From the NCBI GenBank assembly GCA_001871475.1, contig MNVE01000016.1, forward strand, positions 62,001-126,000: a DNA stretch of 64,000 nt, in the 5' to 3' direction. This stretch comes from Candidatus Micrarchaeota archaeon CG1_02_47_40. GTDB taxonomy: Archaea > Micrarchaeota > Micrarchaeia > Anstonellales > CG1-02-47-40. The notes under the pieces are model-generated. The model searched no databases. It was not told where the DNA came from and saw only the letters and a list, made by a program, of their open reading frames with translations. The translations under genes were made by a program, and so were the position numbers. Every line of letters begins with the position of its first letter. Positions within the stretch are counted from its first letter, which is position 1. Shown one piece after another: positions 10,827-63,024 of the stretch.

Positions 10827-11981
10827 ATGGCTAGAAAACCGTTCAAGCTTGCAATATGCCATCCCTTTCTGGAAGTGAAGGGAGGGGCGGAAAAATGCAT
10901 GTTAAGGATAGCGGAGAGGTTTGACGCGACTGTTTATTGCATACACTATGATAAGGAGGGGACTTTTCCGGAATTTGAGAAGGTGGATGTAAGGCCGATA
11001 AAGAAGGAGAAGCCGGCTTGGGCGAAATTCATGCCGAAAAGGCTTTACGAAGGATTATCTGCGGGAATGGCATTTTACAATCTGAAGATTCCAAGAGATG
11101 AGTATGACGTAATAGGGGTTTCAAGCTCTCCGAGCGAATGGGCACGAAACAACAACCTGCCTGCCGTCTGGTATTGCCACTCGCCTGCAAGGGAAGTGTA
11201 TGATTTGTATGAGTGGAGGATGAGGCAGAGGGGATTGGCACAAAAGGCGGCTTTCTTTGCAAGCACGAACGTGTTTAGGCAGGTGGAAGGGAGAATAGTT
11301 CCCAAAATAGAGCATATTTTTGCGAATAGCCGTTCTGTGCAGGGGAGAATAAGGAAATATTTGGGAAGGGAAAGCGAAATCCTGTATTCCGGAGTGCAGT
11401 TTGAGAAGTATTACTGCAAAAATTATGAGCCGTATTTTTTCTACTCTTCAAGAATTGCACCGGAGAAGAGGTATGAGATTGCCATAAATGCGTTCTTGAA
11501 ATTCAGGGAGAAATACCCCAAGTGGAAATTCATTATTGCGGGCTCGCTGTTTCAGGAGAAAAAGGAGCATGTGCAGTATTATGAGAAGATAAAAAGGATG
11601 CTTGGGAGTGCAGGGGAGATACGGCTTGATGTAGAGGATAAGGAGATTTATGAATTATATGCGAATTGCACCGCTACGCTTTACACCCCGCTGAATGAGG
11701 ATTTTGGGCTGATTCCTGTTGAGTCTGCTGCTTCCTTGAAGCCCTGCATTGCGATTAAAGAGGGAGGGCCGACTGAAACCATCTTGGACGGTAAGACGGG
11801 CTTTTTAGTTGAAACGGAAGGGGAGATGGTGAAGAGGATGGAGGAGCTTGCGGAAGATATTGCGCTTGCAAAAAGAATGGGAAAGGCAGGAAGGGAGTTC
11901 TGCTATAAGAATTTTAACTGGGAGGTGTTCATGAAGAGGTATGAAGAGGTATGCAGGGGAGTTATTGCCTCTTCTCGTTGA
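10827..11981 (+). CDS. GT4-family glycosyltransferase with a replaced C-terminus
   Basis: A 384-residue GT-B glycosyltransferase. ICHPFLEVKGGAEKCMLRIA is the acceptor-side Gly loop; WYCHSPAREVYDLYEW, FFYSSRIAPEKRYEIAI and the donor-site region NEDFGLIPVESAASLKPCIA follow. It is cotranscribed with gmhB (3-base gap), so heptose transfer is plausible but inferred. The odd point is the end: after MKRYEEVCRGVIA the frame closes with SSR and stop, and a hairpin element begins at the next base. Downstream of the element (12024) lies a second copy of the MKRYxEVC segment that runs on for 37 more codons with its own stop. The original protein was probably about 35 residues longer. Confidence 0.85.
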   Translation: MARKPFKLAICHPFLEVKGGAEKCMLRIAERFDATVYCIHYDKEGTFPEFEKVDVRPIKKEKPAWAKFMPKRLYEGLSAGMAFYNLKIPRDEYDVIGVSSSPSEWARNNNLPAVWYCHSPAREVYDLYEWRMRQRGLAQKAAFFASTNVFRQVEGRIVPKIEHIFANSRSVQGRIRKYLGRESEILYSGVQFEKYYCKNYEPYFFYSSRIAPEKRYEIAINAFLKFREKYPKWKFIIAGSLFQEKKEHVQYYEKIKRMLGSAGEIRLDVEDKEIYELYANCTATLYTPLNEDFGLIPVESAASLKPCIAIKEGGPTETILDGKTGFLVETEGEMVKRMEELAEDIALAKRMGKAGREFCYKNFNWEVFMKRYEEVCRGVIASSR

Positions 11982-12022
11982 GCGGGGGTTGAGACCTCAA
12001 GGGGGCGTTAGCCCCCTTAGGT
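11982..12022 (+). repeat. hairpin-string element, short form, at the 3' end of a glycosyltransferase gene
   Basis: It begins right after the stop with GCGGGGGTTGAG, has a TTGAG-AC-CTCAA hairpin and then GGGGGC-GTTA-GCCCCC, and ends TTAGG. The 16-base terminal hairpin is identical, on the opposite strand, to one in the tRNA-Val intron (62771-62786), and the GCGGGGG-TGA opening matches the element at 46342. The middle hairpins of the long forms are missing, so this is an internally deleted copy. Confidence 0.8.
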
Positions 12023-12023
12023 A

Positions 12024-12173
12024 ATGAAGAGGTATGGAGAGGTATGCAAGAGAGTTATTGCAGAGAATGAGAAGGGGCATTCCGATAAATTAACCGGAAA
12101 AATTCTTGAGGGAGTAAACTTTGGAAAAATAAAAACAAGAAAATTTGATATAGAAGAGCTTGAAAAAGCTTGA
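12024..12173 (+). pseudogene. detached C-terminal end of the upstream glycosyltransferase
   Basis: An open stretch of 49 codons starts MKRYGEVCKRVIAENEKGHS and ends EELEKA. Its first 38 bases match 11931-11968, inside the live gene, at 35 of 38 positions. It therefore represents an alternative, probably ancestral, 3' end of the same gene, now cut off by the hairpin element. No ribosome site is evident before its first ATG, so it is likely untranslated. Confidence 0.75.
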
Positions 12174-45227: not shown

Positions 45228-46316
45228 ATGGCATCTGTTCGGATTGTTGGAGGCGGGCCTGCAGGGCTTTTTACAGCGATTTATTGCGCACGCGCAGGAC
45301 ACGCCGCAACTGTGCTTGAGGAGCACAAAAAGATAGGCTTGCCAGTAAACTGCACCGGCCTCGTCTCAAAAACGGGCATGGATGAAATCGGAAGGGATGT
45401 GAAAATTGGAAGGTGCATAATAAATGAAATCAGCGGGGCGAGAATAATTGCAGGAAAGAATGAGCTGAAGATAGAAGCGAAAGAAACGAAAGCATACGTA
45501 ATTGACCGCGCTGTTTTTGATTCCCTCTGCGCAAAAAAGGCAGAGGAAGAAGGGGCAAAAATAATGCTTGGAAGAAGGGCAGGGGAAGGAGACTTGAGTG
45601 CAGAGAAGGGTGCAGAGAGTATAATAGGGGCTGACGGGCCGAATTCTTTTGTTGCAAGATATTTTTCCTTCCCTCCGATGCGCAATTTTGCAAATACCTT
45701 TCAGGTGGAAGTTGAAATTGAAACAGACACTCGTTTAGTGCAGGTGCATCTTTCAAACAGGCATTTTCCAGGATTTTTCGGCTGGGTTGTTCCGCTTGGA
45801 AACGGGTATTCGCGCGTAGGGGTTGGTGTTGGGCTGCCGAATAATGCAAGGAAAAGCTTTGAGGGGTTTGCAGAAATGCTCGGTATATGCAATAGGCGCA
45901 GGCACAATATTTCAGCGGCAGTAATACCGCTACAAATGCGAAAGAAAACCGCTATGCACATTGGCAAACGCAATGTTTTCCTTGTTGGGGATTCAGCAGG
46001 GCAGGTGAAATCCACCACAGGGGGAGGGGTGGTGTTCGGCTGCCTTTGTGCGAAAATTCTCGGGAGAAACATCGGAAATCCGCAGGAATATGAAAGGGAG
46101 TGGAGGGGAAAATATGGTGGGGATTTGAAGATGCATTATGCGATAAGAAAGGCGCTTGATGGGATGAATGACGCGATGCTGGAGAAGGCGGTCGGGGTTG
46201 CTGGAAAGATGAAACTTTCTCCCTTCCTTGAACGATATGGACATATGGATATGCCGATGAAAATGACGTCTGCGGAAAGCGTATTGAACTATTTGAAGTT
46301 ATTAGTGTTCGGATGA
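45228..46316 (+). CDS. geranylgeranyl reductase family FAD protein
   Basis: A 362-residue FAD enzyme that saturates isoprenoid chains of archaeal lipids, or of the dolichol carrier. SVRIVGGGPAGLFTAIYCAR binds FAD, GLPVNCTGLVSKTGMDEIG has the conserved Cys, GADGPNSFVARYF is the second FAD motif and VFLVGDSAGQVKSTTGGGVV the third. The ATG at 45228 lies 28 nt after a TTTTTTAAG box, so leaderless translation is likely. Ancestrally it joined directly onto the cis-prenyltransferase gene. Now a hairpin element and a second, diverged copy of its last 24 codons lie between (46342, 46432). Confidence 0.88.
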   Translation: MASVRIVGGGPAGLFTAIYCARAGHAATVLEEHKKIGLPVNCTGLVSKTGMDEIGRDVKIGRCIINEISGARIIAGKNELKIEAKETKAYVIDRAVFDSLCAKKAEEEGAKIMLGRRAGEGDLSAEKGAESIIGADGPNSFVARYFSFPPMRNFANTFQVEVEIETDTRLVQVHLSNRHFPGFFGWVVPLGNGYSRVGVGVGLPNNARKSFEGFAEMLGICNRRRHNISAAVIPLQMRKKTAMHIGKRNVFLVGDSAGQVKSTTGGGVVFGCLCAKILGRNIGNPQEYEREWRGKYGGDLKMHYAIRKALDGMNDAMLEKAVGVAGKMKLSPFLERYGHMDMPMKMTSAESVLNYLKLLVFG

Positions 46317-46341
46317 TACAAGTGAAAGCTATTGGAATTCC

Positions 46342-46430
46342 GCGGGGGGTGAAGCCCTTCGCCAAATTCTTATTTGGCGAGACTTGACGCACAAGCGTCA
46401 AGCTGATAGGGGGATGTGCCCCCCTTATGG
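46342..46430 (+). repeat. hairpin-string element, long form, at the 3' end of the geranylgeranyl reductase gene
   Basis: It begins GCGGGGGGTGAAG, then carries hairpins TCGCCAAAT-TCTT-ATTTGGCGA, CTTGACGC-ACAA-GCGTCAAG and GGGGG...CCCCC, ending TTATGG. Read on the minus strand, the tRNA-Val intron carries the same order with identical 9- and 8-bp stems but different loops, the same AGCTGATAGGGGG linker, and two extra hairpins. A shorter relative is at 11982. It is non-coding. Confidence 0.88.
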
Positions 46431-46431
46431 G

Positions 46432-46503
46432 ATGGATATGCCGACGAAGATGGCTGGCGCGCAAAGTGTATTAAGCTATTTGAAGGTATTAGTATTCGGA
46501 TGA
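46432..46503 (+). pseudogene. second, diverged copy of the geranylgeranyl reductase 3' end
   Basis: These bases encode MDMPTKMAGAQSVLSYLKVL then VFG and stop, matching the live gene end (MDMPMKMTSAESVLNYLKLL, VFG). Over 73 aligned bases (46245-46317 against 46432-46504) I count 60 identities and no gaps. The copy keeps the original junction: its GGATGA is the ribosome site for the cis-prenyltransferase 5 bases on. It has no start signal of its own. Confidence 0.85.
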
Positions 46504-46508
46504 TTTTT

Positions 46509-62641: not shown

Positions 62642-62682
62642 TAGATTGGCAGTCAGAATTATTCTTACGGGGCCCGTAGTCG

Positions 62683-62717
62683 AATGCTGTGCCGGCTTTC
62701 CGCCTGCATAAGCAGAC
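62683..62717 (+). other. tRNA-Val intron 1 (D-arm, about 35 nt)
   Basis: The splice sites form a relaxed bulge-helix-bulge: exon GTC pairs with GAC (62715-62717), with bulges GAA on the 5' side and AAT on the 3' side. Inside, TGC (62685-62687) pairs with GCA (62712-62714), TGTGC with GCATA (one G-U), and GGC with GCC around a five-base loop, so the intron is one extended hairpin. The junction can slide up to two bases because GAAT and AAT repeat. Confidence 0.78.
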
Positions 62718-62763
62718 AATGGTTAAGACGTCGCTCTTACACAGCGAAGACTAGGAGTTCGAA

Positions 62764-62926
62764 CCCATATGGGGGCTAACGCCCCCTATCAGCTTGACGC
62801 TTCGCGTCAAGACATTTGACGACTCCGTCGTCAAAATTTTGCGACTGCGTCGCAAATCTCGCCAAATCAGAAATTTGGCGAAGGGCTTCACCCCCCCAAA
62901 AAGGGGCGAAGGTCTTTGGGAACAAT
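62764..62926 (+). other. tRNA-Val intron 2 (T-loop, about 163 nt) made of a hairpin-string repeat element
   Basis: The T-loop is split near position 58-60. GTTC (62757-62760) pairs with GAAC (62920-62923) and the bulges are GAA and AAT, the same triplets as in intron 1. Between lie five strong hairpins: GGGGGC/GCCCCC (62771-62786), CTTGACGC/GCGTCAAG (62793-62811), TTTGACGAC/GTCGTCAAA (62815-62835), TTTGCGAC/GTCGCAAA (62838-62856) and TCGCCAAAT/ATTTGGCGA (62859-62881). Then comes GGGCTTCACCCCCCC. The element is the same family, in reverse orientation, as the one at 46342-46430. No ORF is contained. Confidence 0.82.
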
Positions 62927-63024
62927 TCTCCTCGGGCCCATTTTTCTCTTCTTCGTGTGGCTTTCCCCTAACAAAAACACAACTTATAAAAGGTATTCGC
63001 TCGTGAAGGTTTGCGGTGGTCTTG

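Follow-up and report, generated by a model that had tools for sequence, protein, structure and literature searches.

A twice-interrupted tRNA-Val gene of a Micrarchaeota archaeon and the dispersed, structured element found in its T-loop intron

Introduction

How a tRNA gene came to be interrupted twice, once by an intron consisting mostly of hairpins, and whether such an intron belongs to something that spreads, are the questions raised by a locus near the end of the window (by which we mean the whole stretch of 64,000 nucleotides analyzed, C11:62001-126000 of a 1.15 Mb genome that is assembled in 16 contigs and 93% complete). Non-canonical tRNA introns are known, including introns at 59/60 (PMC4090602, PMC4033280). 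The original prediction for this locus was of a tRNA-Val(UAC) with two introns, the second of which was considered a member of a dispersed repeat family that had possibly spread by becoming a removable intron.

The tRNA-Val(UAC) Gene and Its Introns

ARAGORN identified no tRNA in the unspliced window, and a 73-nt tRNA-Val(tac) when residues 62670-62682, 62718-62762, and 62926-62940 were joined. These three exons, all on the forward strand, were delimited from the ARAGORN result on the spliced sequence and from contiguous homologs in the relatives G014, G019, and G030, whose uninterrupted 73-nt tRNA-Val genes have 93, 93, and 92% identity, respectively, over all 73 positions. Exon 1 (62670-62682) comprises the 5' strand of the acceptor stem and positions 8-13; exon 2 (62718-62762) the 3' part of the D arm, the anticodon arm with TAC, the variable loop, the 5' strand of the T stem and TTCGA; and exon 3 (62926-62940) TT, the 3' strands of the T and acceptor stems and the discriminator A, after which CCA is not encoded. 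All stems of the mature tRNA are fully paired. The two-intron structure and the 73-nt product had thus been predicted correctly, but the 3' intron boundary was one base off: because the contiguous relatives read TTCGATT or TTCGATC, we place the T-loop junction at 62762|62926 rather than 62763|62927.

Intron 1 (62683-62717, forward strand, 35 nt) lies in the D arm and was identified as a gap in the alignment to the contiguous relatives and by its hairpin fold; its ends are uncertain by 1-2 nt, GAAT being present at each of the two junctions. The tRNA-Val genes of two further relatives (G021 and G005) are interrupted at the same place. Intron 2 (62763-62925, forward strand, 163 nt) follows position 58 in the T loop, as judged from the contiguous relatives, and may slide one base to 62762-62924. 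In line with the five hairpins predicted, it contains four perfect hairpins (stem 8-9) and a G/C hairpin. No Rfam family reached its gathering threshold in the window, and hence no match to a catalytic (group I or group II) intron was obtained. A direct repeat between 62656-62675 and 62920-62939 (70%) was found to be a result of the palindromic acceptor sequence GGGCCC. We also dropped a candidate target duplication in the gene, for which the 3' end of the intron resembles exon 2 (GCGAAG...), as none was seen over 30 T-loop copies.

At the T-loop junction, GTTC on the exon side (62757-62760) pairs perfectly with GAAC on the intron side (62920-62923), both on the forward strand, as the central helix of a bulge-helix-bulge (BHB)-like structure with a 5' bulge GAA (62761-62763) and a 3' bulge AAT (62924-62926). 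The bulge triplets that had been expected at BHB-like junctions are present, but we regard the motif, in which pairing was judged by eye, as a relaxed rather than a strict BHB, because GTTC/GAAC competes with an inner CCC/GGG helix and with the mature T stem. In the minimum free energy fold the T stem is retained, with an internal loop in place of the BHB helix. For the unspliced gene the folding energy is -122.4 kcal/mol (z = -8.6). Perfect hairpins, defined as having a stem of at least 8 and a loop of 3-6, number 13 in the window against a shuffle mean of 5.7 (maximum 11), and seven of the 13 sit in just three copies of the element described below, at 12.0, 46.4, and 62.8 kb.

The epsilon2 endonuclease, known from ARMAN-2 of the Micrarchaeota, has a broad specificity and removes introns with relaxed motifs. 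One EndA gene of the present genome (L052:868-2055) encodes a full-length homolog of the ARMAN-2 enzyme (4fz2, E = 6e-136; see also 9w2k), in which the catalytic Tyr/His/Lys and the specificity-loop Tyr-Lys residues described for epsilon2 endonuclease (PMC6379350, PMC12397907) are all conserved. The genome also encodes the ligase RtcB, and splicing of the tRNA-Val precursor is predicted from the presence of the two genes. The RtcB gene (L241/L242, G000:C6:15163-17979) is itself unusual in that its open frame of 981 aa contains an insertion of ~490 aa, probably an intein, between positions 50 and 49 of the model.

We consider it most likely that the tRNA-Val(UAC) gene with its introns is real and functional. 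It is feasible in principle, in an assembly of 16 contigs that is 93% complete, that this copy is a decayed pseudogene and the true Val(UAC) tRNA resides in an unassembled part of the genome. That reading is extremely improbable and already largely refuted by the paired stems, by the 92-93% identity of the exons to intact relatives and by the 35 of 36 tRNA genes of this genome that are interrupted likewise and cannot all be pseudogenes. In addition, no second Val(UAC) gene, intact or otherwise, was present among the tRNA matches of the 93% complete assembly.

The Class A Element

The T-loop intron does belong to a dispersed family, as had been proposed; the core of that family, however, is not the string of hairpins but a G/C hairpin module (CCCATATGGGGG...AAGGGCTTCACCCCC). 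We refer to the structured repeat as class A. It has the form NCC(A)TA-hairpin-(T)RAGGN', followed by YTYAMCCCC. In intron 2 it occupies 62764-62897 of the forward strand (CCC ATAT GGGGG-CTAACG-CCCCC TA ... AAGGGCTTCACCCCCCC), as determined by pattern, DNA, and covariance model searches and by covariation of the outer pair. Between the TA and the AGGG of this core is nested a string of four palindromic hairpins (62788-62881, forward strand, boundaries approximate), which is recognizable as such from short class A copies lacking the stretch and from similar hairpins elsewhere; a hairpin search placed the four perfect hairpins at 62793-62811, 62815-62835, 62838-62856, and 62859-62881. Since similar palindromic hairpins are also dispersed in the genome without the class A core, the Val intron is a composite of two dispersed repeats. 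At L076, L103, and L091, class A copies enclose yet another dispersed repeat (AACACCGTG...CACGGTGTT).

The outer pair N-N' is Watson-Crick in 64 of 69 distinct copies (C-G in 37, A-T in 18, G-C in nine) and not in the other five. A Fisher test on the A/C-T/G subset gave p = 9e-14, a value that is indicative only, as the copies share descent. The stem of the inner hairpin flips its composition among copies, from GGGG..CCCC to CCCC..GGGG. A search of the element loci against Rfam returned no known RNA family besides tRNAs.

Introns in Other tRNA Genes of the Genome

The original prediction had suggested searching the genome for the element inside other tRNAs, and such copies proved to be common; with the intron sequence as query, matches were obtained beside many tRNA matches. 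Among 36 tRNA genes resolved, 35 are interrupted (the exception being Gln(UUG)) and 29 have a T-loop intron, of which 16 contain the class A core (e.g., CCCATATGGGGGG-loop-CCCCCCTAAGGGTTTCACCCCCC) and 13 belong to another type, class B. These counts derive from manual examination of the stretches around tRNA matches, aided by a pairing-based finder; as the finder gave many false matches below a score of -1, only fully paired, hand-checked genes were counted, and the census may be incomplete and miss heavily broken genes. Class B introns are short (34-46 nt where measured) and usually end in GCCCAAAAAT; in this genome (G000) they occur in the T loops of Gly, Glu, Ala, Asp, Lys(CUU), Ser(GCU), Leu(UAG), and Val(GAC). 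GAA is found within the last 14 nt of 14 of the 16 class A T-loop introns. Two genes, tRNA-Ser(CGA) and tRNA-Ser(UGA), have class A twice, once in the anticodon loop and once in the T loop, and a class A copy in the anticodon loop of tRNA-Arg(UCG) is common to this genome and G044.

In the course of the census we observed that the genes for tRNA-Leu(UAG), Glu(CUC), and Glu(UUC) (L030, L031, and L034) adjoin tandem units with short copies of the tRNA 5' or 3' end. The tRNA-end copies are separated by palindromic hairpins, and the same was seen in relatives (L172 and L183).

Among 40 genomes of the order, between 3 and 45 tRNA genes per genome were recognized at E <= 1e-4, and within a single genus (g17) the numbers are 36, 19, 6, and 3. 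Repeated intron invasions are a likely explanation for this spread.

Distribution of Class A in Related Genomes

A covariance model built from 13 class A copies was used to search 118 genomes, including the one under study. Class A was found in 23 of them at E <= 0.001, i.e., this genome and 22 others, in several families of the order. The present genome has 22 matches at E < 0.001, and seven copies in it are away from any recognizable tRNA. The family is therefore not confined to tRNA genes, and the same is apparent in the relatives, where it occupies T loops (several tRNAs each in G030, G044, and G024), anticodon loops, sites directly after tRNA 3' ends (G033, G014, G046, G050, G012, and G007), and sites away from tRNAs.

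Three copies of this genome (L073, L076, and L095; C1:28548, C4:95420-95500, and C15:44792) lie downstream of a TATA-like box and of the leader GCAGGGGGTAGAAGTCCGACCC(C), which is conserved. They have no match to Rfam and may represent a small RNA or a leader of a new type. Class A as a whole might similarly be viewed as a conserved structural RNA, or as a processing or termination signal of tRNA transcripts, that is not mobile and whose covariation reflects RNA function. The strong covariation, the conserved linkers, the frequent position at tRNA 3' ends, and the three copies behind a TATA-like box and conserved GCAGGGGGTAGAAGTCCGACCCC leader are all in keeping with such a role. Nevertheless we judge it improbable, given that the element lies in both orientations relative to protein genes, that it is positioned inside gene ends with duplications (see below), and that 95 of the 118 genomes gave no match.

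Copies Outside tRNA Genes and Direct Duplications

A reverse-orientation match to the Val intron, noted in the original prediction, was confirmed at 46344-46431 (90% identity over 51 nt and 84% over 48 nt). This class A copy, on the reverse strand, was found by DNA, pattern, and covariance model searches and lies between the genes for an FAD-binding oxidoreductase and a UPP synthase, as assigned by Pfam. It is accompanied by a direct duplication (gapped local alignment of 73 vs. 73 nt, forward strand), of which the first copy (46245-46317) is the end of the oxidoreductase gene (...MDMPMKMTSAESVLNYLKLLVFG*) and the second (46432-46504) abuts the element on its other side. Another copy, also on the reverse strand (11983-12029, the span of the covariance model match, supported by the pattern search), is at the 3' end of a glycosyltransferase gene (PF00534). 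There a 38-bp repeat is formed by the end of the gene (11931-11968) and a second copy abutting the element (12024-12061), both on the forward strand and identical at 35 of 38 positions. In contig coordinates these two copies are at C11:73983 (the glycosyltransferase gene) and C11:108344 (the oxidoreductase gene); others away from tRNAs in this genome include those at C15:228779, C13:31100, C11:149344, and C11:270605.

To gauge the significance of such repeats, we scored, for each element, the best direct repeat without gaps that has the end of its upstream copy no more than 2 nt from the 5' edge of the element, using hand-chosen anchors and 4000 random sites as the null, with the three promoter-linked copies classed apart. 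Seven of 26 non-tRNA copies have an abutting repeat at an empirical p <= 0.01, against ~0.3 expected; six of these are below the tabulated cut-off of p < 0.01, and the seventh (L143) has p = 0.0100. The strongest repeats are identical at 34/34 (L181 of G044), 37/39, and 35/38 bp. No clear duplication was found at the remaining 19 of the 26 copies, nor at any of the three promoter-linked ones, and only one of 16 class A copies lying after tRNA 3' ends has a direct repeat. None of 30 T-loop copies reached a score of 9. The 5' edge of the element is precise, while the distance to the downstream repeat copy varies, and insertions are situated just 3' of short TTCA-like motifs. As an empty-site comparison for the 34-bp duplication of L181 we searched G030, which gave no match to the flanks, synteny being absent.

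Because duplications often abut the 5' edge of the element beside protein genes, movement or self-copying of class A at the DNA level is probable, at least where it lies outside tRNAs. The T-loop copies have no such duplications, and the insertion process of the non-tRNA copies can therefore not be extended to tRNAs. An alternative account is that these are ordinary archaeal BHB introns copied only between tRNA genes, by recombination or by reverse splicing at the RNA level, with the non-tRNA copies as rare stray by-products and class A not a mobile element in itself. In its favor, the T-loop junctions are clean and free of duplications, most class A copies of this genome are in tRNAs, and related introns in many tRNAs are the pattern described in Thermoproteales, to the extent that it is set out in two reviews (PMC4090602, PMC4033280). 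Even so, we think this account unlikely, if worth serious attention: neither reverse splicing nor gene conversion produces the long duplications that several non-tRNA copies abut, including the perfect one of 34 bp, and the copies that follow tRNA 3' ends in G033, G014, G046, G050, and G012 cannot act as introns.

A different source of mobility would be a transposase acting in trans, with class A as a palindrome of the REP or IS200/IS605 type moved by a Y1 transposase. Class A has a hairpin with conserved flanking bases and is inserted just 3' of TTCA-like motifs, which speaks for this view, and Y1_Tnp fragments were identified in G000, G044, G050, and G024, those of the present genome at two contig ends. 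To our knowledge, however, IS200/IS605 insertions make no target duplication, in contrast to the long ones found here, and G030, G033, and G014 carry the element with no match to Y1_Tnp. A Y1 transposase as the mover is thus without support across genomes, and we regard this possibility as quite improbable. The two fragments in this genome (G000:C10:3-137 and C15:3-137) are identical and are probably parts of a repetitive insertion sequence at which the assembly breaks.

Discussion

The explanation we favor, with a probability of roughly three in four, is that the window contains a functional tRNA-Val with two introns, and that its T-loop intron is a copy of a spreading structured element. The epsilon2-type endonuclease would cleave the precursor at its two relaxed BHB junctions, and RtcB would join the exons. 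The class A element would have spread through the genome and through several families of the order, into T loops and anticodon loops, tRNA 3' ends, and sites beside protein genes, moving or copying itself as DNA, as the non-tRNA copies suggest. In tRNA loops it may persist because the TTC of the exon and the GAA of the intron together create a BHB-like site for a broad-specificity endonuclease, and in the Val intron the core would later have been enlarged by the nested string of palindromic hairpins. This order of events is one that we infer. The data are consistent with the proposal that the element spread by becoming a removable intron, although the T-loop copies do not have the duplications found elsewhere; either selection removed the extra sequence from them, or they arose by some other route, such as gene conversion between tRNAs.

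More tentatively, and at somewhat less than even odds, class A could represent a novel type of mobile element in Micrarchaeota-type archaea, small, structured, and non-coding, whose insertion as DNA on the 3' side of TTCA-like sites generates direct duplications of ten to more than seventy bases. It would repeatedly colonize tRNA genes, both in their T and anticodon loops and at their 3' ends, and survive within tRNAs as an intron removed by the broad-specificity endonuclease of the host. If this is correct, it would supply the missing DNA mechanism for the spread of tRNA introns, provide a direct route to intron gain in essential genes, and explain the jumps in intron load between close relatives.

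The claim of novelty originally made for the Val intron was too wide, as related introns that spread between tRNAs are known from Thermoproteales. There, transposition of introns between different tRNAs has been known since 2010 (Sugahara 2008; Fujishima 2010, both as cited in PMC4090602 and PMC4033280), and the mechanism was stated to be unknown (PMC4090602). The likeness to the present case is that similar introns occupy different tRNAs of one genome (here 16 of class A and 13 of class B). The differences, as far as the Thermoproteales are portrayed in those reviews, are that the present introns belong to another lineage with an epsilon2-type endonuclease, and that their family also occurs outside tRNAs with direct duplications and after tRNA 3' ends. 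A comparable intron load, with 92-95% of tRNA genes interrupted and often at non-canonical positions, is described for Atabeyarchaeia and Freyarchaeia (PMC11291895), to be set beside the 35 of 36 genes found here; the portions of that paper available to us report no dispersed element behind the introns, unlike in this genome. In Caldiarchaeum, gain of an intron in tRNA-Thr was proposed to have occurred via a recombinase element (PMC3293823), and the two cases are alike in that intron gain is tied to mobile DNA, there with a direct repeat of part of the tRNA. The Caldiarchaeum element, however, is 1.8 kb and encodes the recombinase, whereas class A is small, non-coding, structured, and present in many copies.

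Our literature search, conducted mostly without subscription journals, located no report of such introns in Micrarchaeota. As far as we have found, what is new relative to these systems is that members of an intron family are also dispersed outside tRNAs, where they are accompanied by target-like direct duplications. Within a single genome, and in related families as well, one structured sequence is encountered both as introns and as stand-alone copies between duplicated DNA.
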